Assembly: GCA_019637355.1 (NCBI GenBank)
Contig: JAHBVT010000001.1
Coordinates: 2,449,192 to 2,513,191 of the forward strand
Length of the DNA stretch: 64,000 nt
From: Gemmatimonadaceae bacterium
GTDB taxonomy: Bacteria; Gemmatimonadota; Gemmatimonadetes; Gemmatimonadales; Gemmatimonadaceae
Direction: 5' to 3'
The notes beneath the pieces are model-generated. The model searched no databases. It was not told where the DNA came from and saw nothing but the letters and a program-made list of their open reading frames with translations. Position numbers and translations under genes: made by a program. Positions 45,690 to 62,648 of this stretch are shown in pieces (within the stretch, counting starts at the first letter, position 1; every line of letters starts with the position of its first letter).

Positions 45690-46663
45690 GGTCGGCTACG
45701 GTTGGTGACCGCCGTGCCCCGAGGCGCAGCGGAAGCCGACGTCCCCCCGACCACCCGCCGGACATGTTCGGCGCTCGGCACGGCAGTCACCGCCTCTACA
45801 TAGTAGGCGCCGAGCCGACGCCACGAACGCGCCAGTCGGTTGCGCCAGTCTGCGAAAACGGAGAGATACCGCTCGCGGGCCACCGGGGGCATTGAGCGCT
45901 CGTCCCCCCCGCCCTCAGGGTCGACCCACAGCGTCGCCCGGCTCGGCGGGTCCAACTCACGCGGATGCACGACGTGCACGGCAGTGAGCTCGCAGCCGGC
46001 CGAGGCGAGTTCACGCGCGACGCCAAGCATCGCGTCGAGGTCGCCCAGCATGTCGCTGACCACAACCAACCGCGTGATGATGGTTGCGCCCACGGAAGTG
46101 CGTCGGCTCGCGGTTCGCATCGCGGGGGCGAGGGGCGCGTCGCCGGTCGGTGTCACGCTCGCGAACAAGCGGGCCGCGTCATCCACGAGGCCGCGCCGCG
46201 TCCGCGGGGCCAGGAGGCGAGGACGTTCCGGACTCCCGGGAACGATGGTCACCCCGACGGGATCGCCGGCCCGCTGGGCGGCGGCCATGAGTGCCAGCGT
46301 CAATTGGCGCGTCGTGCGCCACTTGTCGAGCAGCGGGGCGGGAAAGGCCTGCGAGCCCGTGGCATCCACGATGATGCTCGTGGCCGCCACGGCGTGCTCG
46401 GGCGCCAGGCGGATGAACGGTCGATCGGTGCGGGCGAGAACCTTCCAGTCGAGTCGTCGCAGTTCGTCGCCCTGTCGGTACGCACGCAGCTCGACGACTT
46501 CGGACGCCGACCCGAGCGCCCGCGAGCGATGCGCGCCCGGGAAGCCGGCAGCGACGATCCGGCGAGCGGGCCAACGCAGGGTTCGCGTGGCGTCGAGCAC
46601 TTTGGCGTCTTCCGCAAGGATCGTCGCGCTGCCGCTGCGTTGGGATGTGTCGGATCCGCTCAC
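45686..46663 (-). CDS. DUF58 domain protein
   Basis: 325 residues with a complete DUF58 motif: GAHRSRALGSASEVVELRAY, then GDELRRLDWKVLARTDRPFIR (residues about 43-87), followed by a von Willebrand A-like fold (TSIIVDATGS, VVVSDMLGDLDAML). DUF58 proteins are usual partners of MoxR AAA+ ATPases. It starts with GTG at 46663 within the MoxR stop (GTGA). No transmembrane segment is visible, so it is probably cytoplasmic. The C-terminal tail is Ser/Ala/Arg-rich. Confidence 0.9.
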   Translation of the reverse strand: MSGSDTSQRSGSATILAEDAKVLDATRTLRWPARRIVAAGFPGAHRSRALGSASEVVELRAYRQGDELRRLDWKVLARTDRPFIRLAPEHAVAATSIIVDATGSQAFPAPLLDKWRTTRQLTLALMAAAQRAGDPVGVTIVPGSPERPRLLAPRTRRGLVDDAARLFASVTPTGDAPLAPAMRTASRRTSVGATIITRLVVVSDMLGDLDAMLGVARELASAGCELTAVHVVHPRELDPPSRATLWVDPEGGGDERSMPPVARERYLSVFADWRNRLARSWRRLGAYYVEAVTAVPSAEHVRRVVGGTSASAAPRGTAVTNRSRP

Positions 46664-47661
46664 GCGCCGATCCCACTATGCGGCGGCGGCACGGCCTCCA
46701 GCACAGCATCGATGACGCGGTCCACCGTCACGCCTTCGGCCTCGGCCGCGAAGTTCGTGAGGATGCGGTGGCGCAGCACCGGGTGCACGACGCGTCGGAT
46801 GTCCGATGGCATCACGGCGAGGCCGCCGCGTAGCAGGGCGAAGGCCTTGGCGCCGAGGACGAGCGCTTGGCCAGCGCGAGGGCCGGCGCCCCAGCGCACG
46901 AACTCGCGCACGATCGGCGGGGCGTCGTCTCCGTCCGGGCGCGTGGCGCGCACCAGGTCCGCCGCATAGCCCAGAATCGCATCCGCGGCGGGCAGGTCGC
47001 GCACAAAACCCTGCAGGGCGAGGGTGGTCGGACCGTCCATCACCGGATTCATAGCGTCCGCAATCGCGCTGGTCGTCGCGCGCAGGATGCCGATCTCGTC
47101 CTGACGCCCCGGATAATGCACGCGCACCTGGAACAAGAAGCGGTCGAGCTGCGCCTCGGGCAGCGGGTACGTCCCCTCTTGCTCGATCGGGTTCTGGGTG
47201 GCGAGGACGAAGAACGGCGCCGGGAGCGCCCGCGTCTCGCCGGCGGCGGTGACGGAGCGTTCCTGCATAGCCTCGAGGAGTGCCGCCTGGGTTCGCGGCG
47301 GCGCACGGTTAATCTCGTCGGCAAGCACGATGTTGGCGAACACGGGCCCCGGGACGAACCGGAACGCCCGATGCCGCGTGGCGCTGTCTTCCTCCATGAC
47401 CTCTGTGCCAGTGATGTCGCTAGGCACGAGGTCGGGCGTGAACTGGATGCGACGGAACGCCAGGCGCATACCGTCGGCGACCGACCGCACCATCAACGTC
47501 TTGGCGAGGCCGGGCACGCCGACGAGCAGAGCGTGCCCTCCCGCAAGGATCGCGAGCAACACCTCCTCGACTGCCTCCTCCTGCCCGACGATCCGCTTGG
47601 CGACCTCGCGGCGAAGGGCGGCCACGCGCGCGAGCAGGTCGGCCAGCCAGACGGTGCTCAT
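46660..47661 (-). CDS. MoxR-family AAA+ ATPase
   Basis: 333-residue cytoplasmic AAA+ protein. Walker A is GVPGLAKT (residues about 48-55), Walker B VLADEINRAPPRTQAALLEAMQE, sensor 1 FFVLATQNPIEQEGTYPLPEAQLDRF, and the C-terminal lid has PSDIRRVVHPVLRHRI. MoxR ATPases act as chaperones that mature partner proteins, often with DUF58 and von Willebrand A proteins encoded next to them, as here. ATG 47661 overlaps the M16 peptidase stop by 4 bp, which ties this module to the protease. Confidence 0.93.
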   Translation of the reverse strand: MSTVWLADLLARVAALRREVAKRIVGQEEAVEEVLLAILAGGHALLVGVPGLAKTLMVRSVADGMRLAFRRIQFTPDLVPSDITGTEVMEEDSATRHRAFRFVPGPVFANIVLADEINRAPPRTQAALLEAMQERSVTAAGETRALPAPFFVLATQNPIEQEGTYPLPEAQLDRFLFQVRVHYPGRQDEIGILRATTSAIADAMNPVMDGPTTLALQGFVRDLPAADAILGYAADLVRATRPDGDDAPPIVREFVRWGAGPRAGQALVLGAKAFALLRGGLAVMPSDIRRVVHPVLRHRILTNFAAEAEGVTVDRVIDAVLEAVPPPHSGIGA

Positions 47662-50519
47662 GGCTGGCTCCCGCTGCCGGGCGAAGGCTCGAGGACGAAG
47701 TGTGCGTACTGCGTGGTATCGAGGAAGCGGCGCGCCGACTGCCGGACGCTCTCCACCGTCATCCCCTGCGGCCGCGAGTCGTCGAGGAGCAGGTCGAACG
47801 ACCAGCCGCGATCGCGGAGCTGCCCCAGTTGCGTCCACATCTCGTTCGTCAGCCGCGCCGTCTCGTTCTGGCGCAGGAACTGCGACCGCACCTTGGCGAC
47901 CTCCTGCTCAGTCGGACCGACCGTGCGCAACGAGTCGATGACGGCGAAGGTCGCGGCCGTGAGCTCTTCGCGCCGCGCCGGGTCGGCGATGAACACGATC
48001 GTCGTGCCGTAGCTGTTGCCGCCCGGCAGGTACGACACGTTCGTCTGGACCTGCACGCCGTAGGACCCGGCGAGGTCCTCGCGGATCCGCTGGGTCAGTC
48101 GCAGCTTGAGTACCTCTGTCAGGGCCGTGACGTCAAACCACTCCTCGGATCCGCCGCCGATCGCTCCGTGGAATGCGATTGCGGTGTAGGTCTGCGGCTC
48201 CCGGCCGAGTTGCATAGTGCGACGCACAGTGCCGGGCGGAGGCGGGATCCGGACGTCCGGCGTGGTCTCGCGCGTGCCCGTCGAGGGCAGGCCACCGATG
48301 TACTGGAGCACGAGCGGCTTGATGTCCTCCACGGCGAATGCGCCGACGAACGTGAACGTGAAATCGCCGCCGTTGCTGAAGCGCTCGCGGAAGAAGGTGG
48401 GCACACGCGCGAAGCGCACGCGGTCAAGCAGGGCCGGCGACGGCGTCGGCGCCCGGTGGTGGTACTGGGCCATCACGGCCCGAATCGTGTCCTGGAACGC
48501 GAGGACGGGGCCGGCGGCGTGCTCGATCATCGCGCTGCGCAGCTTCTCGGCCGACGCAACCATCGCCGAGCTGTCCTCGCGCGCCTGCGTGAACATCAGA
48601 TACAGCAGTTCCAGCGTCGTTGGCAGGTCGCGCCGCGACGAGCGGCCCAGCCATTCCTCATTGAGCTGCTGTACCGTCTGGCGCACATCGATGATCTTGC
48701 CGGCGATGCGCCGACCGAGTTGCCGGGCGTTGTAGCTGCCGAATCCCGACGCGCCTTGCAGTTCGTTGACGAGCGCGGCGGTGGCGAAATCGCTGTCGCT
48801 GGCCATCTGGATGCCCCCCGGGCTCGACGCACTGATCAACACCTCGTCGGCGCGATAGTCGGTCGGCTTCAAGAATACCCGCGCGCCGTTGGACAGCAGC
48901 CACTCCGTCACGCCGACGGACGCGTGCACCGTCGTCTCGACGATCGTGCCCGGGGCCGGCGCCGTGGACAGCAGCGGGGCGTTGAGGTCGGGCTCCACGT
49001 ACGCGGCGACCGTGGCGGCACGCGCCTCGGCAAAGGCGGCGAGCAGTTGGGCTTCCGTGGGTCCGCTGCGCCCGGTCCCGCGCTGCGTGGCTGTCGTCAT
49101 CACGACCCGCGGGCGCGCCTCCAGCCACCGCGCGGCCTCGCGTTGCAGGTCCTCGGCCGTGATGCTGGACATCAGCCGACGGGCCGTCACCACCGAAGCT
49201 TCTGTGTCGAGCAGCGGCGCGCCCGTCAGCGCCATACGCGTCAGCTTGTGCGCCGTGGTGCCGGCGAGGATGTTGTCGCGCTCGAGGTAGAGCTGTTCAC
49301 CGCGGCGCATCTGGCTCGCCTTTTCGCGGGCGAGCTCTCCGGGAGTGAAGCCGTGCTGCGCGACCCGGGCCATCTCGCGCACCATCGCCCGCAGCGCCGC
49401 GACGAAGTCATTGTCACGGACCCGTGCCGAGAGGGTCGCCAGCTCGACCGGCTCGACGAGCGGCGAGAGCGAGTAGCCGGCGCCGAGGTACGGTGCACCG
49501 GGCTTGTCTGCGACCTCAGCGAGGCGGCTGTTCAGCATATTCTCGAACATCGCGGCGATGATGCGCGCCCGATATCCGCCGCTCGTGGCCACGCCCTCGG
49601 CGTTCGCGACCTTCACGGCCACGCTGACAATGCTCGCCGTTGCCTCCTCGTCAGCGGTGGTGCTGACCAAGGTGCCGTGCGTCAGCGGCACCGCGACGCG
49701 GGGTCGTGGGCGCGCGGCCGTCGGCCGCGCAAGGCGCGAGAAGTGGCGACGCAAGCGCGCTTCCATCGCGTCCACGTCGAAGTCACCGACCGCGACGACT
49801 GTCATCAGGTCGGCGCGATACCAGTCGCGGTAGAACCGGAGCAGTGCCTCGCGCGGCGCGTGTTCGATGTGCGCCGGCGTGCCGATCGGCAGGCGCTCCG
49901 CGTACTTGGAATCCCGCATGAGCGTGGGGAAGTGCGCGCGGAAGGTGCGGTCATCGGCGCCGAGGCGCCCGCGCCACTCCCCGAGCACGACGCCGCGTTC
50001 AGCTTCGACCTCGTCGGCCTCGAACGTGATGCCGTGCGCCCAGTCCTCAAGAATCTGTACCCCCGTCTCGAGCAGCGGCGCCGAGTCTGTGGGGATGGTC
50101 AGCATATACACCGTTTCGTCGAACGAGGTATACGCGTTGAGATGCGCCCCGAACTTCATGCCTACGAGCTCGAGGTAGTCGCGGAGTTCGTGCCTGCGGA
50201 AGTTGCGGGTGCCGTTGAACGCCATGTGTTCCACGAAGTGGGCGAGGCCCTGCTGATCCGCGTCCTCGTGCACGGAGCCGACGCGCACGACCAAACGCAG
50301 CTCCGCGCGATGCTCCGGCTTGCGCGCGTGCCGAATGAGATACTGCAGTCCGTTCGGGAGCGTCCCGCGCCGCACCGCAGGGTCCAGCGTGAGCGCTGTG
50401 TCGGGCACGGCCGCGCGGGTGGCCGGGACTTGGGCCGGCGCCACCGTCGAGGCGGCGGCGAGCAGGGCAGCGGTGGTTGCCGTCGCGAAGGCCGCGCGGA
50501 AGAGATGGCCAGCTGTCAT
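47658..50519 (-). CDS. M16-family zinc metallopeptidase (PqqL-like), secreted
   Basis: 953 residues with a signal-like N-terminus (AAFATATTAALLAAASTVAPAQ), so it is probably periplasmic. The first M16 repeat has the inverted zinc motif HxxEH in LAHFVEHMAFNGT and the distal Glu in EAERGVVLGEWRGR. The second, inactive half begins near residue 500 (VTEWLLSNGARVFLKPTDYR). The two-repeat layout and length match PqqL/pitrilysin-type oligopeptidases that cut peptides inside a closed chamber. ATG 50519 starts the signal; the longer frame is not conserved. It overlaps the MoxR gene by 4 bp and follows the thioredoxin-fold gene by 38 bp. Confidence 0.9.
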   Translation of the reverse strand: MTAGHLFRAAFATATTAALLAAASTVAPAQVPATRAAVPDTALTLDPAVRRGTLPNGLQYLIRHARKPEHRAELRLVVRVGSVHEDADQQGLAHFVEHMAFNGTRNFRRHELRDYLELVGMKFGAHLNAYTSFDETVYMLTIPTDSAPLLETGVQILEDWAHGITFEADEVEAERGVVLGEWRGRLGADDRTFRAHFPTLMRDSKYAERLPIGTPAHIEHAPREALLRFYRDWYRADLMTVVAVGDFDVDAMEARLRRHFSRLARPTAARPRPRVAVPLTHGTLVSTTADEEATASIVSVAVKVANAEGVATSGGYRARIIAAMFENMLNSRLAEVADKPGAPYLGAGYSLSPLVEPVELATLSARVRDNDFVAALRAMVREMARVAQHGFTPGELAREKASQMRRGEQLYLERDNILAGTTAHKLTRMALTGAPLLDTEASVVTARRLMSSITAEDLQREAARWLEARPRVVMTTATQRGTGRSGPTEAQLLAAFAEARAATVAAYVEPDLNAPLLSTAPAPGTIVETTVHASVGVTEWLLSNGARVFLKPTDYRADEVLISASSPGGIQMASDSDFATAALVNELQGASGFGSYNARQLGRRIAGKIIDVRQTVQQLNEEWLGRSSRRDLPTTLELLYLMFTQAREDSSAMVASAEKLRSAMIEHAAGPVLAFQDTIRAVMAQYHHRAPTPSPALLDRVRFARVPTFFRERFSNGGDFTFTFVGAFAVEDIKPLVLQYIGGLPSTGTRETTPDVRIPPPPGTVRRTMQLGREPQTYTAIAFHGAIGGGSEEWFDVTALTEVLKLRLTQRIREDLAGSYGVQVQTNVSYLPGGNSYGTTIVFIADPARREELTAATFAVIDSLRTVGPTEQEVAKVRSQFLRQNETARLTNEMWTQLGQLRDRGWSFDLLLDDSRPQGMTVESVRQSARRFLDTTQYAHFVLEPSPGSGSQP

Positions 50520-50557
50520 GGAGGCTGTGGTGGCTTGAGGAAGGAGGGACCGGTGCG

Positions 50558-51922
50558 TCAGTTCACGAGGTCGAGCATCGCGCGCCAAAGCGCTTCTGTT
50601 GTGTGGTTCAGGGAGTCGGACAGGCGAATCAACCCATCGCCATCGATCAGCACGGCGGTCGGGTCCAAGCTGGAGAGCACGCCGTAGGCCTGCTCGTTCG
50701 GATTGAGTTCAGGGAACTGCCGACCGTCCGGCATCGGCTTGAAGACCGTCTCCGTGACGACCATCGCTGCCGGCAGCGCGAGTTCCTCGAGGTACTGCAT
50801 CGCCAGCAACGGCGCTTCCGTGGCGTAGTCCATGGGCGCCGGACGACGCCGGAAGTACCGTTGGCTGCGCGTGACGATGACGAGGTCTATCCCGCGAGCG
50901 GCGTAGGTCGCGGCCAGGCGGCGGAACGTGTAGTAGCCGTCGTAGCACGAGAAGAGGCAGGTGTGCTCGACGAACAGCAGCAGCGTGGGGCGTCCGCGGA
51001 GCGGGCGTGTGCTGTCCGTTCCCGCTGGGAACCAGCGGCCGCCCTGCAGCGGCGTCGAGGTCTGCCCCACCACCCGCATACCGGCGAGGCCGCGCTCGAT
51101 CGTCTCGTGGGCCTCCGACGAGTACTTGCCGACGCGGGCGGCCCCGCGCTCCAGCACGCCGAGCGCCTCCGTCACGCCGCCGGCCCCGAAGAGCGCCGCC
51201 CGCGACGCCAAGCGGTATAGCAGGGCTTGTTCCGCCGCGAGGTTATGGTCATCGGCTTCACCCAACTGGGTGGTCAGCGCGAGCCCAGCGCGCGTCGCTC
51301 GAGTGAGCCGGCCCTCGTCGAAATCCGTGAGGGCGTCCTGCGCGAGGGCGAGATAGGCGCGCAGGCGCGCAGGGATCGCCGCATCACCCAGACTGTCGAG
51401 ACGCGCCATAAGCCGCCAGGCGTCCTGGCGCCGCGGCGTCGGCCGCATCGCGAGCAGCGTCGCGATTGCCCGCTCGAGCGCCTCCGGGGCCGCCGCCGTG
51501 CGCTCGAGGTAAATCTGGAGGGCGGAATCCGATCTGGCGGCGGTGCCGGCGAAGGCAGCGAGCAGCGCGAGGTCAGGCAGCGCGTCGGTGTCCGCCACCG
51601 CGAGCGTGTGCGCGCCTCCGCACATCGCCGCCACGCTGCGTAAGGTCGTGCTCACGACATTCCGCGTCCGCAAGTCCAACGAGTCGACCAGCGTCGTGCG
51701 TTCGGCGATCGCCTCGCGTCGCCGCGCCGCTTGCACGCACTCGTTCGGATAACGATAGAGCGCCAGCGCGGAGTCGCCCCGCGCTTGGGCGGGAGCCGTC
51801 ACGGCAGCGCCGGCGAGTCCGGCGACGACCAGGAGGGTGGCCTGCATCGCGGCGAGCAGTGCCGCCAAGGTACGGACGACGTGCCGTCCCCAGCGCTGCG
51901 AGAGTGGAAGGTCAGACAGCAT
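50558..51922 (-). CDS. Exported protein with helical repeats and a thioredoxin-like C-terminal domain
   Basis: 454 residues. An N-terminal signal/anchor lies at about 20-45 (TLAALLAAMQATLLVVAGLAG). Residues about 50-290 are Ala/Leu-rich helices resembling TPR-like repeats. The C-terminal domain (about 310-454) has a TlpA/AhpC-type thioredoxin fold, GRPTLLLFVEHTCLFSCYDGYYT, with a C-X3-C pair in place of CXXC. ATG 51922 overlaps the TldE stop by 11 bp and is preferred over a TTG upstream at 51937. It may handle disulfides or redox for the secreted peptidases; this is inference. Confidence 0.72.
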   Translation of the reverse strand: MLSDLPLSQRWGRHVVRTLAALLAAMQATLLVVAGLAGAAVTAPAQARGDSALALYRYPNECVQAARRREAIAERTTLVDSLDLRTRNVVSTTLRSVAAMCGGAHTLAVADTDALPDLALLAAFAGTAARSDSALQIYLERTAAAPEALERAIATLLAMRPTPRRQDAWRLMARLDSLGDAAIPARLRAYLALAQDALTDFDEGRLTRATRAGLALTTQLGEADDHNLAAEQALLYRLASRAALFGAGGVTEALGVLERGAARVGKYSSEAHETIERGLAGMRVVGQTSTPLQGGRWFPAGTDSTRPLRGRPTLLLFVEHTCLFSCYDGYYTFRRLAATYAARGIDLVIVTRSQRYFRRRPAPMDYATEAPLLAMQYLEELALPAAMVVTETVFKPMPDGRQFPELNPNEQAYGVLSSLDPTAVLIDGDGLIRLSDSLNHTTEALWRAMLDLVN

Positions 51923-53291
51923 CGGCGAGCCCCGCAAAATTGAAGTCGCGCACCTTCAGTGCCGGCACGACGGTGGGGAAGTACCGGCTGAGCACTCGCT
52001 GCGGCGTCCCGATCTGCTCCACGTTGTTGAGCATGAAGATCGGGGACTCCAGGAAGCGGAAGTTGCGCGCGGGATGCGTGATGCGGCCGTTCTCGATCAG
52101 CCACAGCCCGTCGCGCGTGAAGCCCGTGCAGAGCACCGATGCCTGGTCGATCGTCTGGATGTTGCTGAACCGCGTGACGAGGAACCCGCGGCGGGTAGTG
52201 CGGATCATCTGCTCCACGGTCGAGGTTTCGCCAACGCCCTCGAGCCGGAAGCCTCCTTGGGCCAGCAACGGCTCGTTCCGATGCAGGTACTGCATGGCGT
52301 AGTGGCGCTGGTACGCCAGGTCCTTGAGGACCCCCTTGTCGATCCAGGTCGCCGCGTAATACGGATCGTCCGTCACCGCATACGGCAAGTGCGGCGCGAC
52401 GGGGTCCATCGGATCCACGCGCAGCGTGAGGCGACGGTCCATCACCAGTTCGCCGAAGCGGGCGAAGCCGCGACGGTCGGCAGAGAAGGGCAACCCCCCG
52501 GACTCGGTGAACTGTCGGTCCATTGCCACCGAGCTGTAGAGCACGCGGACGAGATCCGCCACCGCCTGCGGCTCGAGGATCACCGTGTAGCGTCCCGGTT
52601 CCACGGCCCGCGGGTCGCGCGAACGTACGCACTTGTCCACGGCGCGGGCGCTGATCGCGTGCGGGTCGATGCGCTCGATGAACTGATTGTCGATTCCCGC
52701 CCACCCGGACGCCATGCCCTTCTGGTCGCGTGCGGTCATCGAGCAGATCGCTTCGGTGGTCGGGTAGTAGAGGTCGATGCCGCGGTTGTCGAAGCGCACG
52801 ATGCCGTGCGCGCCCGTGATCAACTCACCCGCACATTGCAGCCCGGCGTCCTCCGCCGGGGCGATCATCGCGCGCGCAATATCTCCCCGGGCCTCCGCCG
52901 TCATTGCGAAGGTCGACGGGCTCCATAGTTCTGGCCGCAGGTGCGGTAGCAGCGTCGACGGCTCCGACGGCGGGTCTACCGGGCTCCGGCGGGACAGCGC
53001 CATCTGCGATTCCGCCTCCGCGACCGTCGCGCGGAGACCCGCCTCGTCGAATCGATTGCTCCACACCACGGCGCCCGCACCGTCGCGCGCGCGCGTGATC
53101 CAGTAGGAATCGCGACTCGCTTCTTCCGATGAATACGCGAAGTTGCGCGCCCAGCGCACCCGCCCCTCCCACTGCAGGCGGATGCCAAACGAGGTGAAGC
53201 CGCCGCCCTGCGCGGCGTTGAACACGAACTCGGCCAATTGACGACAACGCACGTGATCGAGGAAGTCGGGCGCCGCACCTTGTGGGCTCAT
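51912..53291 (-). CDS. TldE/PmbA-family protein
   Basis: 459 residues of the TldD/PmbA family, in the place of the TldE subunit. Family segments: SEEASRDSYWITRARDGAGAV, TTEAICSMTARDQKGMASG near residue 185, and the C-terminal GVGETSTVEQMIRTTRRGFLVTRF plus IENGRITHPARNFRFLESPI. It has no HExxxH metal motif, as is normal for TldE. No signal peptide is seen, although its partner has a Tat signal. ATG 53291 overlaps the TldD stop (ATGA). TldD/TldE heterodimers cleave peptides such as modified microcin precursors and unfolded segments. Confidence 0.85.
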   Translation of the reverse strand: MSPQGAAPDFLDHVRCRQLAEFVFNAAQGGGFTSFGIRLQWEGRVRWARNFAYSSEEASRDSYWITRARDGAGAVVWSNRFDEAGLRATVAEAESQMALSRRSPVDPPSEPSTLLPHLRPELWSPSTFAMTAEARGDIARAMIAPAEDAGLQCAGELITGAHGIVRFDNRGIDLYYPTTEAICSMTARDQKGMASGWAGIDNQFIERIDPHAISARAVDKCVRSRDPRAVEPGRYTVILEPQAVADLVRVLYSSVAMDRQFTESGGLPFSADRRGFARFGELVMDRRLTLRVDPMDPVAPHLPYAVTDDPYYAATWIDKGVLKDLAYQRHYAMQYLHRNEPLLAQGGFRLEGVGETSTVEQMIRTTRRGFLVTRFSNIQTIDQASVLCTGFTRDGLWLIENGRITHPARNFRFLESPIFMLNNVEQIGTPQRVLSRYFPTVVPALKVRDFNFAGLADAV

Positions 53292-54910
53292 TGGACCTTC
53301 CGGCGCATATCGACTACCGACAGGTTGTTGACGCGGATCGCCGGCGTCACCACCGACCGCGGATGCAACTGCTGCCAGTTCTTGCCATACTCGAAGGACG
53401 CCGTACGGACGGTGGAGGCGCCACCGAGGGCTGCGGTATTCTTCCAAAGCTCGGGCGTACGGTATACGTAACCGAACCCCGTGACGGCGTTGCCAAGGCG
53501 TCCGTTCCGGATCTCGAACACGCGCGTGCCTTGGCCCCAGCCACTCGCGCACTGGTGATCGTGCTCGCTGCGGCCTCCGCGCACGAGGTAGCCGCGCGTG
53601 ACCCCGCGCACGAGCTCGTCGAGTGTCGTGTCCGTGGGCGACGGCGCGAGGGCGAAGTTGACGGGCTGCGGTCCGGTCACGTACAGCGCGTGCTGCGCGC
53701 CCGCGCAGCCGCTAGAGACCGGCGGACGCCGCGACAGCCACGACCCGCTCTCGCGCGTCGTAAGGAAGTTTCGCAGGACGCCCTCACGCACGACAGGGAC
53801 GTCCACCGGCTCGACACCTTCGTCGTCCCATCGGACCGTGGCGGCGCCAAGTGGCTGCCGTCGCGATCCCGTGAGATTCACCAGTGCGCTGCCGACCTGG
53901 TATGTGTCCAGCATCGCGTCCGGGTCGTCGAGGAAGCTCGTCCCGTCGTTGTTGGCATCGTACCCCATCGCGCGAGCGAGATCGCAGGCGGCGCCAATGC
54001 CACCGTCGATGATGCCCGCGACGGCCGGCGCGTCAAGCACGACGTCGTAACGGCCGATATCGACGGGTTGCGTGAAGCGCGCGCGTTCGAGGTCTTCGAA
54101 CATCGCGCGGAGCCGCTCCCGCGCGGGTGCGTCGCGCAAGTGTTCCCAGCCCGCACGGGCCAGTGCGCCAATGTCGAGCTCACCCGACGCCATCTGCTGT
54201 GTCCGCCAGTGGGGACCAAGCACAAGAGCGACTTGCGCACCGGTGCGAAACAGCGTCTGGGCACAACGCGCCCCGTCGGTGCTGACGAGGTAGCGCTCCT
54301 CTCGCTCGAGGACGAGCTTGGACTTCATTTCCGCCAGCGCCCGATTCTCGCGAAAGGCGAAGTCGTGGAGCGCAGCCACCCAATCGAGCGCGACGCCCGG
54401 ATCCATCGCGATTGGATCGATGCGCACCGGCTGTCGCCACTCTCCGACGGCTGGCTGCGCGATTGGGGCGAGCGCCACTTGGCGCGGCTTCCCGCGTGCG
54501 CCCGCCCGCGCGGAGCCTGCCGCGGCGGCGGCAAGCCGCGCGGCGTTGTCGGGCGTCAAACGCGGGTGGGAAGCGAATCCCCAGTACCCGTCGATAAGCA
54601 CGCGCACGCCGATGCCCACCGTCTCCGAGTCAAACCACGTGGTCGCCAGTGCGCGCTGCTGGAGCTCCAACGTACGGACCAAGCTGCGGGTCACGCGGGC
54701 GTCGGCGTAGGTCGCGCCGGCGCGCCGCGCCGCCTCGATGGCGACCGCGGCGAGGGCCAGCGGATCCTCGTCACGTCGGCCGCGGCGAGACGCCGGCCGC
54801 GCCGACTCCGGCAACGAAACGAGCGCTGATGGGTGCGCGGACGCGAGACCGGGCATCGTGGCCAGCAGTGCGGCCGTACCCGCCTTCACGAATAGGCGTC
54901 GAGTGGTCAT
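53288..54910 (-). CDS. TldD-family protein with Tat signal and without the HExxxH motif
   Basis: 540 residues. The N-terminus TTRRLFVKAGTAALLATMP is a textbook Tat signal (T-R-R-x-F-x-K). TldD domain segments: SDTGARC-like VSTDGARCAQTLF near residue 213 and WDDEGVEPVDVPVVREGVL near 370. Aligning the conserved GTS (residues 323-325) with E. coli TldD puts ACDLAR at 308-313 where HEXXXH should be, so His, Glu and His are Ala, Cys and Arg. The metallopeptidase centre is lost. It still pairs with the TldE-like gene (ATGA overlap). ATG 54910 is chosen because it begins the Tat signal. Confidence 0.84.
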   Translation of the reverse strand: MTTRRLFVKAGTAALLATMPGLASAHPSALVSLPESARPASRRGRRDEDPLALAAVAIEAARRAGATYADARVTRSLVRTLELQQRALATTWFDSETVGIGVRVLIDGYWGFASHPRLTPDNAARLAAAAAGSARAGARGKPRQVALAPIAQPAVGEWRQPVRIDPIAMDPGVALDWVAALHDFAFRENRALAEMKSKLVLEREERYLVSTDGARCAQTLFRTGAQVALVLGPHWRTQQMASGELDIGALARAGWEHLRDAPARERLRAMFEDLERARFTQPVDIGRYDVVLDAPAVAGIIDGGIGAACDLARAMGYDANNDGTSFLDDPDAMLDTYQVGSALVNLTGSRRQPLGAATVRWDDEGVEPVDVPVVREGVLRNFLTTRESGSWLSRRPPVSSGCAGAQHALYVTGPQPVNFALAPSPTDTTLDELVRGVTRGYLVRGGRSEHDHQCASGWGQGTRVFEIRNGRLGNAVTGFGYVYRTPELWKNTAALGGASTVRTASFEYGKNWQQLHPRSVVTPAIRVNNLSVVDMRRKVQ

Positions 54911-55013: not shown

Positions 55014-56018
55014 CTAGCGCACCACGAACTCGCCGCTCTGGGCTGGCATAGTCACGGTCGTCCAGCGATACGTGCCGGGAGTCGAGAAGCGCCGCCGCTC
55101 CGCGCCGTACGGCGCGATCGCCAGGTTCCCCGCCAGTTCCCACTCGGAGGCCGCCTCGGCGGCGGTTGAGTCGCTCCACCGCACCTGGAGCGTGGAACTG
55201 GTGTAGTTGCTGATGCTCACGATCCCGCCCGCTCCGAGGTAGAACGGCGCCTCCGGCGACGCCAGGATCGTGTTGCTGATCGGGTCGGTGTAGAGGAAGA
55301 CTGACATCTCCGTCGGATCCGTGAACTCGAACTCCACGGAGTCGACGAAAGTCTGGCCGTAGGCCGTCGTCGAACCGATGATCCAGGTCGTCCCGCGGCG
55401 TTGCGGGACGAATGCGGTCAGCGTCGGGAGCAGGAAGACGCCGCTCGCGCGATCGCGCACCTCGAGCCGCACGAACACGTCGAAAAGCTGGTTGCCCGCC
55501 GTGTCGAGCACCGTGGGCGAAAGGAACTTGAGCGAGCCGATGCCAAGGTGCGGGCTCTCCCACGGCGGCAGGGCCAGCGACAGGGACCCGACGGCGGCAC
55601 GTGATGGCGTCACGGTCACCAACACCGAGTCGTACTTCGAAACGCCACCTGCGGTCGCGACGACTTCGACGACGACCGGCGACGCGGCCACACTCAGGGC
55701 CAGCAGCGTGCCGTCAGCCGCCACGGTGACCTTGCCGGAGTCCGCACTCGTGAACCGCAGTTCCGGGACACCGGCAAACACGGATCGGTCGATTGCCTCG
55801 GCGATCATCGTCACCGGCAGGGCATCCCCCACCGCCATTGTGGCGGCGCGCGGCGTCACGCGAATGCGTGCCAGTACCTGATCCGGACGGCTCGGCCCGA
55901 CGCTTCCGATGGCATCGTCGGTGCACGCGGTCGAGAGCGCCAACAGGCTCGCCACCGCGACCGCCCGCGTCGCGCGAATCGCCCATCCGGGCAGGGCAGA
56001 AAGGAACGATAGGGTCAT
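55014..56018 (-). CDS. Lipoprotein with Big2-like and cupredoxin-like domains
   Basis: 334 residues. The signal ends in the lipobox LSTAC (Cys32). Residues about 48-145 form a bacterial Ig-like Big2 domain (IRVTPRAATMAVGDALPVT, FTSADSGKVTVAADGTLLALS). The C-terminal 70 residues look like a cupredoxin fold (VSISNYTSSTLQVRWSD, FSTPGTYRWTTVTMPAQSG), but the Cys and His copper ligands are missing. It lies 1 bp after the SusD gene, a position often used for surface-exposed lipoproteins that help SusC/D bind the substrate. Role inferred only. Confidence 0.72.
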   Translation of the reverse strand: MTLSFLSALPGWAIRATRAVAVASLLALSTACTDDAIGSVGPSRPDQVLARIRVTPRAATMAVGDALPVTMIAEAIDRSVFAGVPELRFTSADSGKVTVAADGTLLALSVAASPVVVEVVATAGGVSKYDSVLVTVTPSRAAVGSLSLALPPWESPHLGIGSLKFLSPTVLDTAGNQLFDVFVRLEVRDRASGVFLLPTLTAFVPQRRGTTWIIGSTTAYGQTFVDSVEFEFTDPTEMSVFLYTDPISNTILASPEAPFYLGAGGIVSISNYTSSTLQVRWSDSTAAEAASEWELAGNLAIAPYGAERRRFSTPGTYRWTTVTMPAQSGEFVVR

Positions 56019-56019
56019 C

Positions 56020-57387
56020 TCAGGCTCCCAGGTTGAGGCAGGCCTTCACGGTCGGATGTCGCTGGGTCTCGCTCGTGGGCAGTTGCAGCACCACCTGGTC
56101 GCCGTAGTTCGCGTCGACGAGGATTGGCGAATAGCTCGTGTACAGGCCGGTCGGATACACCGTCGCCTGGTCCCGACCGTAGACGCGGAGCAACCGCCGC
56201 AGGTCGCCTTGGCGATGGCCGGTCGCGAAGAGCCAGAACGCGCGCTCGCTGTAGACCAGGTTAAGGCGGCCCGCCGCCGACCCAGGGTCAGCGAGCGGCG
56301 GCAGACCCGCCGTGCCGCCGCTGCCGGCCGGCGCCGGAGCCGGACACGTCATCGCGTCGGTGCAACTCGTACGGAGCGCATTCAGCGTCGTCAGCCAGGA
56401 CGCGTCGCCGGCGCGCAACTGTGCCTCTGCCTCGGCGAGGCGCGCCTCGATGCCGGAAGCCAGGACCGTCGCGCTCGCGGCGCTGGTGTAGAGCGCCTGC
56501 GTCGGCACGAACCCTGCGGCCAGCGGCACGCGAGGATCGCCGATGCCGGAGAAGGGCTGTCCGTTCCCGCCTTCCCCGCTCGAGACGCTCACGGCGCCCG
56601 GAACGGAGCCCAAGACGTTCATCATCGACGGGATTGTCGCCGAGTGCTCGGTGGCGAACTGGAATGTCGTCGGGACGGCGGCCAACGTCGTCGCGATGTC
56701 ATCGAAGCGACCGAGGTTCAGTAGTGCGCGGGCCTTGCCGACCCGGGCGGCAAGGGCGAAGCGCAACGAGTCGCCCGCAAGCGCGAGCGCGGAGTCGAAC
56801 AGCACCAGCGCTCGCTCGTTGAGCTGCGCCGTCGTCAGGCCCGCGGAGAAGACCGGGTCGTCGTCGAGCGGTACCTCCGTGAGCGGTACTCCGGAGCAGA
56901 AGAGCTCGGCGAGGTGCAGCACGGTGTATGCCTCGAGCACCATAACGTGGGCTCGAAGCGGCGTCAGCGGCTCCCGACCGTAGCGGACGAGCGCCTGGCG
57001 TGCCAACATCGCGGCGACCCGCGCCGACTGGAGGTTCTCGTACACGGTCTTGCCCGGTTGCACCGCGTACGGTGAGGCCGGCACGTAGCGCCGCGCGTCG
57101 AGGTCGAGCCCCGAGAAGGTCCCGTACGGCTGGAACTCGTCGGCAAAGATGCCGCTCGCGACCACGTAGTTGTCCACCGGCAAGTAGCGATTGCCCGCGT
57201 GGAACGCCTGGGTGAAGTACGAGATGGCGCCGTCGTACATCGCAACGGCCCCCGCCTCGCTCTCCACACGGTCGCGCTCAAGGACCTCGTACGGCGGCTT
57301 GGCCCCCACAAGGTCATTTGGCGAGCACGCGGAGACGCCGAACAGGGCAAACAGCGGCACCCACCCCGCACAGATCCGGAATCGCAT
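56020..57387 (-). CDS. SusD/RagB-family outer-membrane lipoprotein
   Basis: 455 residues with a lipoprotein signal (LFALFGVSAC). TPR-like helices pack through the protein (ALVRYGREPLTPLRAHVMVLE, LALAARVGKARALLNLGRF near residue 230), with SusD-type segments ARLAEAEAQLRAGD and ERAFWLFATGHRQGDLRRL near the C-terminus. SusD proteins cap the SusC channel and bind the substrate at the cell surface. It starts 1 bp after the SusC stop, so the pair is surely co-expressed. The ligand is not predictable from sequence. Confidence 0.86.
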   Translation of the reverse strand: MRFRICAGWVPLFALFGVSACSPNDLVGAKPPYEVLERDRVESEAGAVAMYDGAISYFTQAFHAGNRYLPVDNYVVASGIFADEFQPYGTFSGLDLDARRYVPASPYAVQPGKTVYENLQSARVAAMLARQALVRYGREPLTPLRAHVMVLEAYTVLHLAELFCSGVPLTEVPLDDDPVFSAGLTTAQLNERALVLFDSALALAGDSLRFALAARVGKARALLNLGRFDDIATTLAAVPTTFQFATEHSATIPSMMNVLGSVPGAVSVSSGEGGNGQPFSGIGDPRVPLAAGFVPTQALYTSAASATVLASGIEARLAEAEAQLRAGDASWLTTLNALRTSCTDAMTCPAPAPAGSGGTAGLPPLADPGSAAGRLNLVYSERAFWLFATGHRQGDLRRLLRVYGRDQATVYPTGLYTSYSPILVDANYGDQVVLQLPTSETQRHPTVKACLNLGA

Positions 57388-57388
57388 T

Positions 57389-60300
57389 TCAGTACTCCAG
57401 CGTGACGCGGAAGAGGAACTCCCGCGGTTGAGGGATTGCCGTGGTGTAGTCCGAGATGGCGTCGCCGCCGAGCGCCAGCGCGCCGTTGACCTCCGGGTCA
57501 AAACCGCCGTAGCGGGTCCAGAGCGCGAGGTTCCGGCCCATAACAGCCACCGTCGCGCCCCGCGCGCGCGCCAGCTGCGCGAGCCGTGGCGACAGCGTGT
57601 AGGCGAGGGAGACCTCACTGAGCCGGAGCCAGGCCGTCGACTCGACGATTGACCCGGCCGTGAGCCCGGCCAGCTCCAACGCCTGCAACGGCAGAGGCGC
57701 GCGCGGGTCGTTCAACCCGAATGCCGCCGGCGACACCGACCGGCTGTTCGCCATACCGTTCGTCTGCTCGAGACGCACCGTGAACGTCATCCGGCCGTCG
57801 AGAAGCCGCAACGCGCTCAGGTAGGAGATCTCGCTACGCGGGAACGGTGCCCCCATATACACCGAGGAGTCCCCGAGCACGAGTTCGTCCGGCACGAGGA
57901 TGCCGTCGCCGTTCAGGTCGTTGTAGCCCAGTAGGGGCCGACGCCAGATGCCAAACAGCGGGTACCCCTCCACGACCCGGGCATCCTCGCGACCGTACGA
58001 CGTGATCGACTCACCGATGGCGAGAACGCGATTGCGCACCATACCGCCCAGCACCGTCACCTCCCAGCCGATCGACCGCCGGTCCAGCAGCTTCGCCGAT
58101 ACGCTCAGTTCGGCGCCGCGATTCTCCACCAACCCGATGTTCTCGAAGCGCTGGAGATCCAGCACGGTCGTCGTGCCACTGTATGAGCCGCCGGCGGAGG
58201 CGGGGACCGCGAACGCGTGCAGGGCGTCACGCGTGCGCTTCACGTAGAGCGTACCGTCGAGGGTCACGCGGTCGCCGAGGAAGCCTAGGTCGATGCCGCC
58301 TTCCACCTGCGTGGAGCGCTCCGGACGAAGATCGTAGTTGCCGGCGTACCGCATCCGCAGGCCGCTGGTCGCGCGACCGTCGCGCACGCTCACGAACGGC
58401 GCGAACAGCCGATCTACGTGCGTCAGGTTTGGCTGCTGCCCCGAATGCCCCCACGCGAGGCGCAATCGCGCGGTGCTGATGCCAAGCGTGCGAGGAAACG
58501 TCTCGTGGTCGGACACCAGCCACGAGGCCTCGACCTTCGGGTACAACGGCGCCTGAGCGTCGCGGCCGAAGGCGCTGCCGGCGTCCTGCCGCAGCGCTGC
58601 CGTGAGGAACAACTTCTCGTCCACGTTCAACCGCTGCTCCAGGAACCACCCCGCCGTGGCAGACTCCTCGCGCACTTCCTCCGTCGCCTGCGCGGCGGCC
58701 CCGTTCACGGAGCCGCTCCCGAAGGCCAGCCCGTCACCCACCGCGCGCAGTCCGCCCGTCCGGCTGTCCACATACTGCCCGCCAACTGTCGTGATGCCTG
58801 TGAGCCACTTCGCCCACGGGCGCGTCACGCTCGCCGACACGTCGCCGGTCCGCACGTTCGTGTTGCCGCGGTAGGTGGAGAAGAAGCCCTGTGTCGGACA
58901 GCCATATGTCGAACACTCGTTCGGCAACCGATGCCGTGCATCCTCGCGTTGCTCGAGGTCCATACCGACGTTCGCCCGCAGGCTGAGCCAGCCCAGCGCC
59001 TGCCAGCTCAGGTTGGCCGTGAGCAACGACCGTTGGCGACTGGTCGTGGTTCGCTCGGCGAACGCGTCGCCAGGCCTGAAGGTCAGTGTGTCAAGCGGGC
59101 GAGTGCCGTCTCCAGCCTGAAGGCCGCTGCCGGCGTCGCGCTGGGAGTTGCCCACCAGGTTCGCCGACAGGCCGAGGGCCATCGTGGGCATCGGCACGAG
59201 CGTCAGACGCCCCATCGCCGTCCAGCCTCCCATCACGTTCGGCCGCTCCTGCCACGACGGGATCTCTCCCTTGAGCTGCAGCAACCGCCGCCGTTCCACG
59301 GTGCTGAGCCGCGTGGTGCCGGTCTGGTCGTTCCACCCGCCCATCACGTAGTAACGCGCCGTCTCGCGACCGCCGCTCGCCGAGAGCGTGGTCCGTGTCG
59401 AGTAGCCGGTCTGGCTCGTCGACGTCAGCGGATCGTTGCCCGGGCTGAACTGCGTCACGCTGTCCTGCATGCAGATGCCGTTCGCGAAATCCCGGAGCGC
59501 GCAGCCCACGGAGGCTGGACCGAGGTCATTGTGGCCCCACCCGTAGCTGTACACGGGAAACTGCCGCGGGACCGTCGAAATGCCGTAGTCCGTCAGCGAG
59601 GTGATGCGCATAGCGCCCGGCGCGCCCCGCTTCGTCCGGATGACGATCACGCCGTTCGCGGCATCAGTGCCGTACAGGCTCGCCGCCGACGGCCCGCGGA
59701 GGACTTGGACCGACTCAATGGTCTGCGGGTCGAGGTAGTCCAGCGGGGACGGTACGGGGAGATAACTCGGCGTCATCGGCACCTGCTCGCCCGGCGCGGC
59801 GCCCGGCGCCGCACTCATCGTGCGCGCCTGGTTCTGTGCGCCGAGGCCCGACGTCGTCGCCGCATTCATCCGCACGCCGTCGACGATCACGATCGGATCG
59901 TTGTTCAGCGTCGCGCTGTTCAGGCCCCGGATGCGGATGCGCGACGGCGCGCCGACCGCGCCGCCTGAGCGAATGACCTGCACGCCCGCCGCGCGGCCAT
60001 CCAAGAGGTCGCTGACACCGAAGACCGGCATAGACCGCACCACGGAGTCGGCGCGAATCGTGGCCACTGAGTTCCCCAACTCGTACTGGCGCCGTTCGCC
60101 GGTCGCGGTGGTCACCATACCGTCGAGCCGACGCACCATCTGGCGCATAGCGATGTCGAGAACGACGCCCAGGCGCTGATCGGGGACCGTGACCCGCTGA
60201 GAGTGCAGGGCATAGCCGAGGCGCCGGACGCGCACTTCCTGTTCCCCGCTCGGCACATTGACGATCACGAACTGCCCGCTGTCGTCGGTCACGGCCGTCA

Positions 60301-60811
60301 ACGAGGTCCCGACCACGAGCACGTGGGCGTCGCGCACAGGCAACTGCGTCTCCTCGTCCTTGACGCGTCCGCCGAGCCAGCCGATGCGCTGCGTCTGGTC
60401 GCGTGCGACCAGCGCCAACTGGTTGCGCGTCCCGACAAGCACGTCCAACTGCGTGTCGTGCAGCAACTGCGTGAGAAGATCGCCGAGCGGCTCGTCGTAC
60501 ACGCGCAAGTCGACGCGCCGGCCTGCCGGAAGCGCCTCAGCGCTGTAGAAGAACCTCACGCCGGCGGCGCGGCCGACAGCCTCCAATGCCTCGCGCAGCG
60601 GCACCTCGCCGAGCGACAGCGAAAGGCGCTGCCGCAACGCCGCAACCGCCGTCGCGGCAACTTCAGTGCGCACGCCCGTGCTCTCCATGAGGAAGCGCGG
60701 TCCGCCACCATCCGCACTGTTGACTGCGGCGACCTGCGCCCTCAGCGGCGCCGCCGCAGTGGCGGCGACGAGAAGGACTGCGAGCAATGTCACGGCCGAC
60801 CGAACGAGCAT
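57389..60811 (-). CDS. SusC/RagA-family TonB-dependent transducer with STN domain
   Basis: 1140-residue outer-membrane receptor. Signal peptide (AVTLLAVLLVAATAAAPLRAQ), then an STN domain (about 60-135: LSLGEVPLREALEAVGRAAG, LLHDTQLDVLV) that usually contacts FecR, a carboxypeptidase-regulatory-like domain (about 150-230: GGRVKDEETQLPVRDAHVLV), a Plug with RIRIRGLNSATLNNDPIVIV and IESVQVLRGPSAASLYGTDA, and a 22-strand barrel ending FLFRVTLEY with a terminal aromatic. The STN, FecR and ECF sigma genes in a row indicate substrate-induced transcription. Imported ligand unknown; the linked peptidase genes suggest peptides. Confidence 0.94.
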   Translation of the reverse strand: MLVRSAVTLLAVLLVAATAAAPLRAQVAAVNSADGGGPRFLMESTGVRTEVAATAVAALRQRLSLSLGEVPLREALEAVGRAAGVRFFYSAEALPAGRRVDLRVYDEPLGDLLTQLLHDTQLDVLVGTRNQLALVARDQTQRIGWLGGRVKDEETQLPVRDAHVLVVGTSLTAVTDDSGQFVIVNVPSGEQEVRVRRLGYALHSQRVTVPDQRLGVVLDIAMRQMVRRLDGMVTTATGERRQYELGNSVATIRADSVVRSMPVFGVSDLLDGRAAGVQVIRSGGAVGAPSRIRIRGLNSATLNNDPIVIVDGVRMNAATTSGLGAQNQARTMSAAPGAAPGEQVPMTPSYLPVPSPLDYLDPQTIESVQVLRGPSAASLYGTDAANGVIVIRTKRGAPGAMRITSLTDYGISTVPRQFPVYSYGWGHNDLGPASVGCALRDFANGICMQDSVTQFSPGNDPLTSTSQTGYSTRTTLSASGGRETARYYVMGGWNDQTGTTRLSTVERRRLLQLKGEIPSWQERPNVMGGWTAMGRLTLVPMPTMALGLSANLVGNSQRDAGSGLQAGDGTRPLDTLTFRPGDAFAERTTTSRQRSLLTANLSWQALGWLSLRANVGMDLEQREDARHRLPNECSTYGCPTQGFFSTYRGNTNVRTGDVSASVTRPWAKWLTGITTVGGQYVDSRTGGLRAVGDGLAFGSGSVNGAAAQATEEVREESATAGWFLEQRLNVDEKLFLTAALRQDAGSAFGRDAQAPLYPKVEASWLVSDHETFPRTLGISTARLRLAWGHSGQQPNLTHVDRLFAPFVSVRDGRATSGLRMRYAGNYDLRPERSTQVEGGIDLGFLGDRVTLDGTLYVKRTRDALHAFAVPASAGGSYSGTTTVLDLQRFENIGLVENRGAELSVSAKLLDRRSIGWEVTVLGGMVRNRVLAIGESITSYGREDARVVEGYPLFGIWRRPLLGYNDLNGDGILVPDELVLGDSSVYMGAPFPRSEISYLSALRLLDGRMTFTVRLEQTNGMANSRSVSPAAFGLNDPRAPLPLQALELAGLTAGSIVESTAWLRLSEVSLAYTLSPRLAQLARARGATVAVMGRNLALWTRYGGFDPEVNGALALGGDAISDYTTAIPQPREFLFRVTLEY

Positions 60812-60897: not shown

Positions 60898-61962
60898 CTA
60901 GCGTTGCAGGAGCGTGACGTGACGTCCGTCCCGTTCGTATGTCAGCCCCACAGGGGCGGTGAGGAACTGCAGGACGTCAGACAGCGGCTCCGACGTGAAC
61001 TCGCCGGTCAGCCGCAGGGCGCCCAGGCGCGGGTCCGCCAACTGCAGCTCGATGTCATACCAGCGCGCAATCGTCTCAATGGCCTCGCGCAACGGGACGT
61101 CACGCAGCAGGAGGCGCCCCTCCGCGAACGCGAGATAGTCCGAGACCACCACCGGCTGCCGCCCGAGCGCACCCGTCGCGTTGACGCGCCCGAGCTCTCC
61201 CGGCCGCAAAGTCACGCTGTCGACCGCATCCAGTGCGGCACGGAGCGACACCAACCCTTCCGCGACCACCACCACGGTCGTGGAGTCGCCAGGGAACGCC
61301 CGCACGGTGAATCGCGTGCCAAGGTCGCGCGCCAGTCCCGTTGCGGTATGTACCGTGAACGGACGCGCCTCGTCGTGCCGCACGTCAAAGAGTGCTTCGC
61401 CGTCAAGCCGAACGGTGCGAGCGCCGTCGGTGAAGTCGCTGTCGAGCTGCAGGACACTGCCCGGTGCCAGTGTCACGCGCGAGCCGTCCGCGAGCGTGAT
61501 GTGCGCGCGCTTGCCGCGCGGCGCCGTATAGGTCACCTGAGCGGCGACATCTGTCGGTGCGCCGGACGAAGGTTCGCCGGCTTCGCGCCACGGACCATCC
61601 ACCATCACAGCGACCGCCGCCGCAGCGGCAAGTCCCACCCAGCGCCAGGCCGTCGGCCGACCCTTGCCTGCCTCCGCGCGGTTGCGCCAAGCGAGGCGCC
61701 GGACGCGGTGGGCAGAGCCGTCGCGCGGCACGGGCAGGCCAGCTCGCGCGGCGACGACCTGCCATCGGTCGTCGCCGCTCGCCCTTGCCTCCGACTCGGT
61801 CGCCGGAGCGCCGGACGCCCGCCACGCCCTGATCATGGTCTCGGCCCAGCGTGCCCGCTCCGGAGACGCCGCGAGCGAACGCTTGAAGGCCTCAGCCTCG
61901 TCGGGCGTCAACTCGCCCCCGAGGTATCGTGTCAACAGTTGCCAGTCTTGGTCGGAAATCAC
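60898..61962 (-). CDS. FecR-family anti-sigma/sigma regulator
   Basis: 354 residues. The cytoplasmic N-terminal part (LLTRYLGGELTPDEAEAFKR) is the usual FecR/DUF4880 region, followed by one helix at about 91-107 (WVGLAAAAAVAVMVDG). The periplasmic FecR domain covers about 135-230 (HITLADGSRVTLAPGSVLQL, TATGLARDLGTRFTVRAFPG). An STN-like C-terminal part (RDVPLREAIETIARWYDI, DVLQFLTAPVGLTYERDG) receives the signal from the SusC STN domain. GTG 61962 is chosen as start; ATG 62010 upstream is an alternative adding 16 residues. Confidence 0.9.
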   Translation of the reverse strand: MISDQDWQLLTRYLGGELTPDEAEAFKRSLAASPERARWAETMIRAWRASGAPATESEARASGDDRWQVVAARAGLPVPRDGSAHRVRRLAWRNRAEAGKGRPTAWRWVGLAAAAAVAVMVDGPWREAGEPSSGAPTDVAAQVTYTAPRGKRAHITLADGSRVTLAPGSVLQLDSDFTDGARTVRLDGEALFDVRHDEARPFTVHTATGLARDLGTRFTVRAFPGDSTTVVVVAEGLVSLRAALDAVDSVTLRPGELGRVNATGALGRQPVVVSDYLAFAEGRLLLRDVPLREAIETIARWYDIELQLADPRLGALRLTGEFTSEPLSDVLQFLTAPVGLTYERDGRHVTLLQR

Positions 61963-62033
61963 GGTTTGCCCAGGTGGGGTGTACCTGTGTGACGGCGCAC
62001 CACGGCACATCCCCTACGCGGGTCCTGCGACGG

Positions 62034-62648
62034 CTAGCCGACGGCCCAGCCCGCCGTCACCAAGGCCTCGCGGATTGCGCGCAAAGCGTGCGTCATCTGC
62101 GCCTCGATCGTCTTGGTCGAGATATCGAGCGCCGCCGCAATCTCGGCATAGCTCATGTGCCGATCTCGGCTCATCTCATAGATGGCGCGCCGCCGCGACG
62201 GGAGCGCCTCGACCGTGCGCCGCACCACCCGGGTGAACTCCTCCACCTCGAACGACTCGCTTGGCTGCTGCACGGCGTCCCTTTCGGTCTCCGCCAATCG
62301 ACGGGCCTCGTCCGCCGCCCAGTCGTCGCGTACCTTCTGGTGTGCCGCCAGCGAGAGTGCGCGGTTCCGGGTGGCGGCATAGAGATAGGCCTGCAGCGTC
62401 GAGTGCAGCGCGAGCGCCTCCCGCTTCGTCCACAGCGCGACGAACACGTCCTGTACCAGCTCCTCCGCCAATGCCGCCGATCCGGCGAGCGACGTCGCGA
62501 AGCGCTGGAGCGGTAGCGAGTATGTACGGAACACAGCCTCGAAGGCGGAAGCGTCCCCGTCACGAAGCGCCGCGACCCACCGCGCGTCGCGTGTGCGTCG
62601 CGCCTCGCGGGCGCGTTCCTGCTCCGACAGCCAGTCTGGTGAGCTCAA
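62034..62648 (-). CDS. ECF-subfamily RNA polymerase sigma factor
   Basis: 204 residues with sigma region 2 (DASAFEAVFRTYSLPLQRFA, ELVQDVFVALWTKRE) and region 4 (VVRRTVEALPSRRRAIYEMS, MSYAEIAAALDISTKTIEAQM), and no regions 1 or 3, as in extracytoplasmic-function sigma factors of the FecI-like type. It is followed by fecR and susC and should direct transcription of the operon when the outer receptor binds its ligand. The only plausible start is a TTG at 62648, since no ATG or GTG lies before region 2 in frame. It is the first gene of the 22-kb operon. No promoter could be recognised in front of it. Confidence 0.9.
   Translation of the reverse strand: MSSPDWLSEQERAREARRTRDARWVAALRDGDASAFEAVFRTYSLPLQRFATSLAGSAALAEELVQDVFVALWTKREALALHSTLQAYLYAATRNRALSLAAHQKVRDDWAADEARRLAETERDAVQQPSESFEVEEFTRVVRRTVEALPSRRRAIYEMSRDRHMSYAEIAAALDISTKTIEAQMTHALRAIREALVTAGWAVG

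Follow-up and report, generated by a model that had tools for sequence, protein, structure and literature searches.

A motif-less TldD clade and its SusC/SusD-type operons in Gemmatimonadota

We found that a TldD homologue encoded in a 64,000-nucleotide stretch of a Gemmatimonadaceae genome (hereafter the window) has lost the HExxxH motif and further metal-site positions, and that it is paired with a TldE-like protein that also lacks the motif. Alignments, trees and gene order show that this protein belongs to a clade of degenerate TldDs with an operon of its own, in which the window copy stands beside a SusC/SusD-type outer-membrane system, its regulators and an intact M16 peptidase. Known Tld proteins are zinc proteases whose shell closes around the peptide. 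We propose, at a probability of roughly one half, that the degenerate pair is a pseudo-peptidase heterodimer that has lost zinc and catalysis and is kept as a peptide-binding shell for uptake, with cleavage done by the M16 peptidase; peptide binding, hand-over and export are the parts that we infer.

A motif-less TldD gene within a SusC/SusD-type operon

The operon of the window reads as follows, in order of transcription, with the evidence for each feature in brackets.

62034..62648, minus strand: ECF sigma factor (PF04542, PF08281)
60898..62010, minus strand: FecR-type anti-sigma regulator (PF04773, PF16344)
57389..60811, minus strand: SusC-like TonB-dependent receptor with a CarboxypepD_reg domain (PF00593, PF07715, PF13620)
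56020..57387, minus strand: SusD/RagB-like outer-membrane lipoprotein (Pfam match of the homologue at locus L106; position after SusC)
55014..56018, minus strand: predicted second lipoprotein, lipobox STAC (a homologue has a bacterial Ig-like domain)
53288..54910, minus strand: degenerate TldD homologue, 540 aa, ATG start (PF19289 and PF01523, alignments, profile match, model)
53990..54007, minus strand: degenerate counterpart of HExxxH within this gene, codons 302-307, DGGIGA (alignments with paralogues and with 5nj5)
51912..53291, minus strand: TldE-like partner, 459 aa, no signal peptide, no HExxxH (PF19289)
50558..51937, minus strand: exported helical-repeat protein (homologues at the equivalent place in other cassettes)
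47658..50588, minus strand: M16 zinc peptidase, inverted motif HxxEH intact as HFVEH (PF00675, PF05193, motif check)
46660..47661, minus strand: MoxR AAA+ ATPase, overlapping the M16 gene by 4 bases (PF07726)
45686..46663, minus strand: DUF58 protein (PF01882)
44448..45689, minus strand: BatA-like protein (weak match below the family's cut-off)

From the degenerate TldD to BatA, gene boundaries overlap by 4 to 31 bases, and the start of the TldE-like gene overlaps the TldD stop by 4 bases. The SusC-like receptor has both plug and barrel (PF00593, PF07715) and a weak, sub-cut-off match to the STN (signalling) domain. Its SusD-like neighbour taken alone has no Pfam SusD match, and the L106 homologue matches SusD_RagB (PF07980) barely over the cut-off. 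The degenerate TldD begins with MTTRRLFVKAG, a twin-arginine signal of the Tat type by its sequence, and the genome encodes TatC; gene content thus fits a Tat substrate, and export of the protein is predicted.

The helical-repeat protein gave very weak profile matches, and its window copy falls into no Pfam family. Variably spaced cysteines lie near its C-terminal part. A thioredoxin-like C-terminus stays a suspicion, because the structure model (pLDDT 48) is too poor to use. Immediately downstream of the operon, at 39546-40376 of the window, lies an IS481-type transposase-like frame.

Loss of the metal site and retention of the scaffold

The original prediction had placed the pair at the right positions, although both genes run on the minus strand (54910-53288 and 53291-51912), and had claimed that both histidines and the glutamate of HEXXXH were gone from the TldD. 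They are indeed gone, but from another register: residues 308-313, numbered from MTTRRLF, do read ACDLAR, as it had stated, yet this places the motif six residues too far downstream. A gap-free alignment to the HExxxH paralogues of this genome (IHESIGHPTELDRAMGYEANYAGTSF against IDGGIGAACDLARAMGYDANNDGTSF) sets the H-E-xxx-H columns at D302-G303-GIG-A307, and in a family-profile alignment (E=4e-24) the LLHEAVGH of E. coli TldD (PDB 5nj5) falls on the same columns as DGGIGA. In the AlphaFold model of the window protein, residues 294-308 form one helix that contains this stretch, and the HExxxH of E. coli TldD sits in the central helix (PMC5810440). The paralogue alignment, the profile match and the modelled helix rule out the ACDLAR register; the alignment with the TldD and TldE families proposed earlier as a check finds the motif absent with its columns shifted to D302-A307.

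The loss extends beyond the motif. Tyr508 aligns with Cys454 of E. coli, the third metal ligand, where 57 of 57 active relatives have Asp, and Val520 replaces a His that is invariant in the active relatives (His521 in the paralogue). H, E and H are all kept in 57/57 active Gemmatimonadota relatives and occur together in 0/29 proteins of the degenerate clade, which excludes chance as the cause of the motif loss. Residues invariant in the active set of 57 but lost from the degenerate clade are the H, E and H of the motif, the Asp aligned with Cys454 and the downstream His. The former H/E/H positions now hold 23 different combinations in the 29 proteins, none of them H-E-H, a pattern that looks like free drift at a disused site. 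Judged by these alignments, the annotation "TldD metallopeptidase" is wrong for the genes of this clade.

The active branch deserves a remark of its own. Its Gemmatimonadota members (L016, L017; 57 aligned) always have Asp at the Cys454 position and an invariant downstream His (in SHG). Since this Asp and the SHG His were lost along with HExxxH in the degenerate clade, the ligands of the metal in the active branch may be His/His/Asp (plus His).

The partner lacks HExxxH, as expected for a TldE, and family alignment together with the lost third-ligand position upholds the view that no metal site can be recognised in this Tld pair. Two ways out had been offered, a non-catalytic binding complex or a different centre. 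An enzyme with another centre might use, for example, the conserved SHGC segment or act as a metal-free hydrolase: His400 and Cys402 are kept in most of the main degenerate subclade (16/21 and 19/21), and the DDEG and TTRE segments remain. However, the His400/Cys402 columns are common to the active family too, the window copy has Ser400, the second degenerate subclade has Arg and Thr/Ala at these columns, and variation at the former motif positions is free. In the alignments of the degenerate TldDs and their partners no newly conserved group of His, Cys or Glu residues was found, which leads us to reject a relocated metal site; the replacement His/Glu cluster that the original prediction had named as counter-evidence is likewise absent from these alignments. 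We regard different chemistry as quite improbable, and the alignments favour the non-catalytic complex.

While the metal site is gone, the scaffold is kept. Pfam assigns PmbA_TldD_3rd (PF19289) and PmbA_TldD_1st (PF01523) to the window protein, and its AlphaFold model (alignment of 15 sequences, mean pLDDT 82.7) matches E. coli TldD with a Z of 34 over 454 residues. Pfam, profile match and predicted fold together place it by descent in TldD of the PmbA/TldD superfamily. Foldseek/VIA also matched its N-terminal part weakly (Z under 5) to platforms of MHC class I, which we dismiss as noise. Glu270 and Asp272 of E. coli TldD are the residues to which Lys456 tethers the clamp, and Ala at 270 and 272 severely lowered soluble expression (PMC5810440). 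Across the degenerate clade the equivalents of these residues are kept (K456 in 26/26 proteins where the segment is present, E270 in 24/29, D272 in 28/29), and it is on this retention, set against the lost H/E/H, that we base the view of a preserved scaffold. The window copy keeps the Lys, but has Asp310 for E270 and Ala312 for D272.

We also considered whether the pair could be two TldE genes. This was ruled out, since the degenerate TldD aligns full-length with TldDs and has PmbA_TldD_1st and the Tat signal, while the partner groups with TldEs. The window partner shares 41-44% identity with the partners in most other cassettes, and no invariant His was found in the alignment of the TldE-like partners. 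The degenerate TldDs and their partners co-diverge closely (Mantel r=0.97, p=2e-4, n=13). Adjacency and joint evolution argue for a heterodimer, whose two subunits may form a closed shell.

The motif-less proteins form one clade under selection

The 29 motif-less proteins form one clade with support of 100/100, and degenerate versus HExxxH needs a single change on the tree; an earlier quick tree agrees with this single split. The tree is unrooted; that the motif was lost, and not gained, is read from the presence of HExxxH in E. coli TldD. On its own long branch stands a divergent group of HExxxH TldDs (HEIVAH, HEIIAH or HEIIGH; L092, L093, L095, L154).

Sequence comparison of close pairs shows purifying selection on the degenerate TldD in relatives of the window copy, with dN/dS of 0.10-0.37 between close degenerate copies against 0.03-0.22 between active ones; these values come from the relatives, the window copy having no close relative. 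The window protein is the most divergent member of the clade (end branch 1.31). This long branch, its additional losses at residues that the clade keeps, and the lack of any dead-class match in the other searched genomes of its genus could mean that the window gene is on its way to becoming a pseudogene, its motif loss without functional meaning. However, both frames are open with coding-type GC by codon position, the TldD signal is intact, the 4-base overlap is preserved, and the motif loss is common to 28 relatives, among which the close pairs show constraint (dN/dS 0.10-0.37). Decay is therefore extremely improbable, and the clade trees and dN/dS of the relatives likewise make an isolated pseudogene unlikely.

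To survey the distribution, a profile of the main subclade was run on 395 genomes across the phylum, with three candidates scored per genome, so that the counts are lower bounds. Matches of at least 635 bits came from six genomes (the window's own, G000, and G007, G047, G056, G061 and G083), whereas the HExxxH proteins read reach at most 547 bits. One of them, the Gemmatimonadaceae MAG G047, has at least 12 divergent degenerate TldD copies. On its contigs (L097-L106, L083) most copies adjoin SusC/SusD genes; the family has expanded inside this single genome. A scan of genome contigs across phyla with one pattern gave matches in Gemmatimonadota only, and a plasmid search returned three distant Tld proteins only.

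A second degenerate subclade (family f5) comes from another family, where it was read in three genomes of a single genus (G092, G113, G120). There, two tandem degenerate TldD genes and a TldE lie directly upstream of MoxR-DUF58 (L158, L159, L160); at L158, BatA and DUF4159 follow MoxR-DUF58 and a TonB-dependent receptor gene lies upstream. A TonB receptor is thus near one of the three loci, and no SusD match was found around them.

The cassette accompanies degenerate pairs

Two cassettes of G056 show the gene order of the window, as do G061 and several contigs of G047; G083, of another family, has the parts arranged differently. In the main subclade, a SusC or SusD homologue adjoins the pair in 18 of the 20 degenerate loci read, against 0 of 25 where the pair is active. 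For 17/19 versus 0/25, a marginally smaller tally, the Fisher test gives p=2.5e-10, but the loci are not independent, many coming from one genome; by genome, the association is 6/6. As for the two exceptions, L102 is cut by a contig end and has the helical-repeat protein and M16 downstream, and at L112 the pair is near an ECF sigma gene with no SusC/D nearby. M16 keeps its HxxEH motif in the window and in each of the five relatives that were read. MoxR adjoins some other degenerate pairs; MoxR-DUF58 is not diagnostic, because it also occurs near some active pairs.

The degenerate TldD and SusD co-diverge as well (Mantel r=0.81, p=8e-4), which indicates that moves and duplications have for the most part involved whole cassettes. 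This co-divergence would also suit a dead Tld shell that acts with FecR and the ECF sigma factor to report a ligand or to help assemble SusC/SusD. Such a sensor or assembly factor would account for the two regulators upstream in the window, for FecR in the loci of several relatives and for the L112 pair close to a sigma gene. On the other hand, ECF/FecR/SusC/SusD operons normally function without Tld proteins, and a pure sensor leaves unexplained the M16 gene that follows the pair in several longer cassettes. We hold this explanation to be unlikely.

Proposed function

In the peptide-binding shell that we favour, the degenerate TldD, with its Tat signal, and the TldE-like partner, with none, would fold in the cytoplasm and be exported together by hitch-hiking, a route suggested by the signal being on one partner only. 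Once in the periplasm, the shell would bind a peptide in extended form that had entered via SusC/SusD and hold it by backbone beta-strand contacts, for which zinc would not be needed. The peptide would then be protected, presented or passed on to M16, the intact peptidase of the cassette, while FecR and the ECF sigma factor would turn the operon on upon import of its ligand. The many divergent copies per genome (12 in one MAG) may correspond to one cassette per peptide class.

Precedent comes from E. coli TldD (PMC5810440): there the bound peptide adds a beta strand, held solely by backbone hydrogen bonds, and the inactivated mutants E263A and H262A crystallised with adventitious peptides in place. 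Backbone-only binding and the peptide-bearing dead mutants make it plausible that a naturally dead TldD/E is a peptide holder. These structures do not prove metal-free binding, because metal content is normal in H262A and the hexapeptide of E263A chelates zinc (PMC5810440).

That the shell serves imported peptides is suggested by the conjunction of TonB-dependent uptake, sigma/FecR inducibility and a separate intact zinc peptidase. SusC/SusD systems import glycans and other ligands too, and the choice of "peptide" as ligand thus rests on the Tld fold and M16. Against the shell, the window copy, most divergent of the clade, has lost residues that the clade keeps (Asp310, Ala312, Ser400), and the second subclade has a different cassette.

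Peptides entering by the TonB receptor might alternatively be toxic or antimicrobial, with the pair acting as a sponge that sequesters them for self-protection and M16 disposing of them. The many divergent cassettes in one genome are in keeping with this, as is the action of E. coli TldD/E on the modified peptide antibiotic microcin B17 (PMC5810440). Nevertheless, we noticed neither toxin nor biosynthetic genes in the cassette, and the arrangement of SusC/SusD with sigma/FecR resembles nutrient acquisition; we judge a sponge very improbable. Within the peptide-binding shell reading, a more specific and more tentative version is that the clade has turned into a set of periplasmic peptide carriers, one per paralogous SusC/SusD cassette, each with ligand-specific capture and hand-over to M16.

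If the peptide-binding shell is correct, a natural clade without the zinc site, its pair kept under selection in outer-membrane uptake operons, would mean that the shell is useful by itself, and a periplasmic step would be added to SusC/SusD-type import. The clade offers a ready test of peptide binding by dead TldD/E.

Comparison with known systems

The window's own genome (3.15 Mb) encodes eight Tld proteins in four pairs, and the three other pairs have intact motifs (HESIGH, HEAIAH and HESIGH). These HExxxH pairs (L016, L017) resemble the degenerate one in being adjacent genes with a Tat-type signal on TldD and none on TldE; they differ from it in the intact motif, at about 30-33% identity between the TldDs. 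In the 17-18 kb around them no SusC/SusD or FecR was found, and one partial M16-like match lies at the edge of L115. The E. coli TldD/TldE (PmbA) system (PDB 5nj5-5njf) shares with the window the predicted TldD fold, the gene pair, PF01523/PF19289 and Lys456. In contrast to E. coli TldD, the window protein, at 16% identity, has neither HExxxH nor Cys454, and has a Tat signal and a SusC/SusD operon.

SusC/SusD (RagA/RagB) systems with ECF sigma/FecR have the same outer-membrane pair and regulators, to which the window locus adds a dead TldD/TldE pair and an M16 peptidase. We know of no described SusC/D system with this addition. In the open-licence literature we found no account of a dead Tld pair in a SusC/D system, and no paper joining TldD with SusD and TonB-dependent transport or with "pseudopeptidase".

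A further parallel is PQQ supply in Gluconobacter, where TldD/E are proposed to stand in for the PqqF/PqqG protease (PMC8602642). In both cases M16-type and Tld-type proteins would be tied to the processing of one peptide, and with this parallel it is conceivable that Tld and M16 proteins divide the work. In PQQ supply, however, the two types are proposed alternatives, whereas the window encodes an intact M16 peptidase and a dead Tld pair together.
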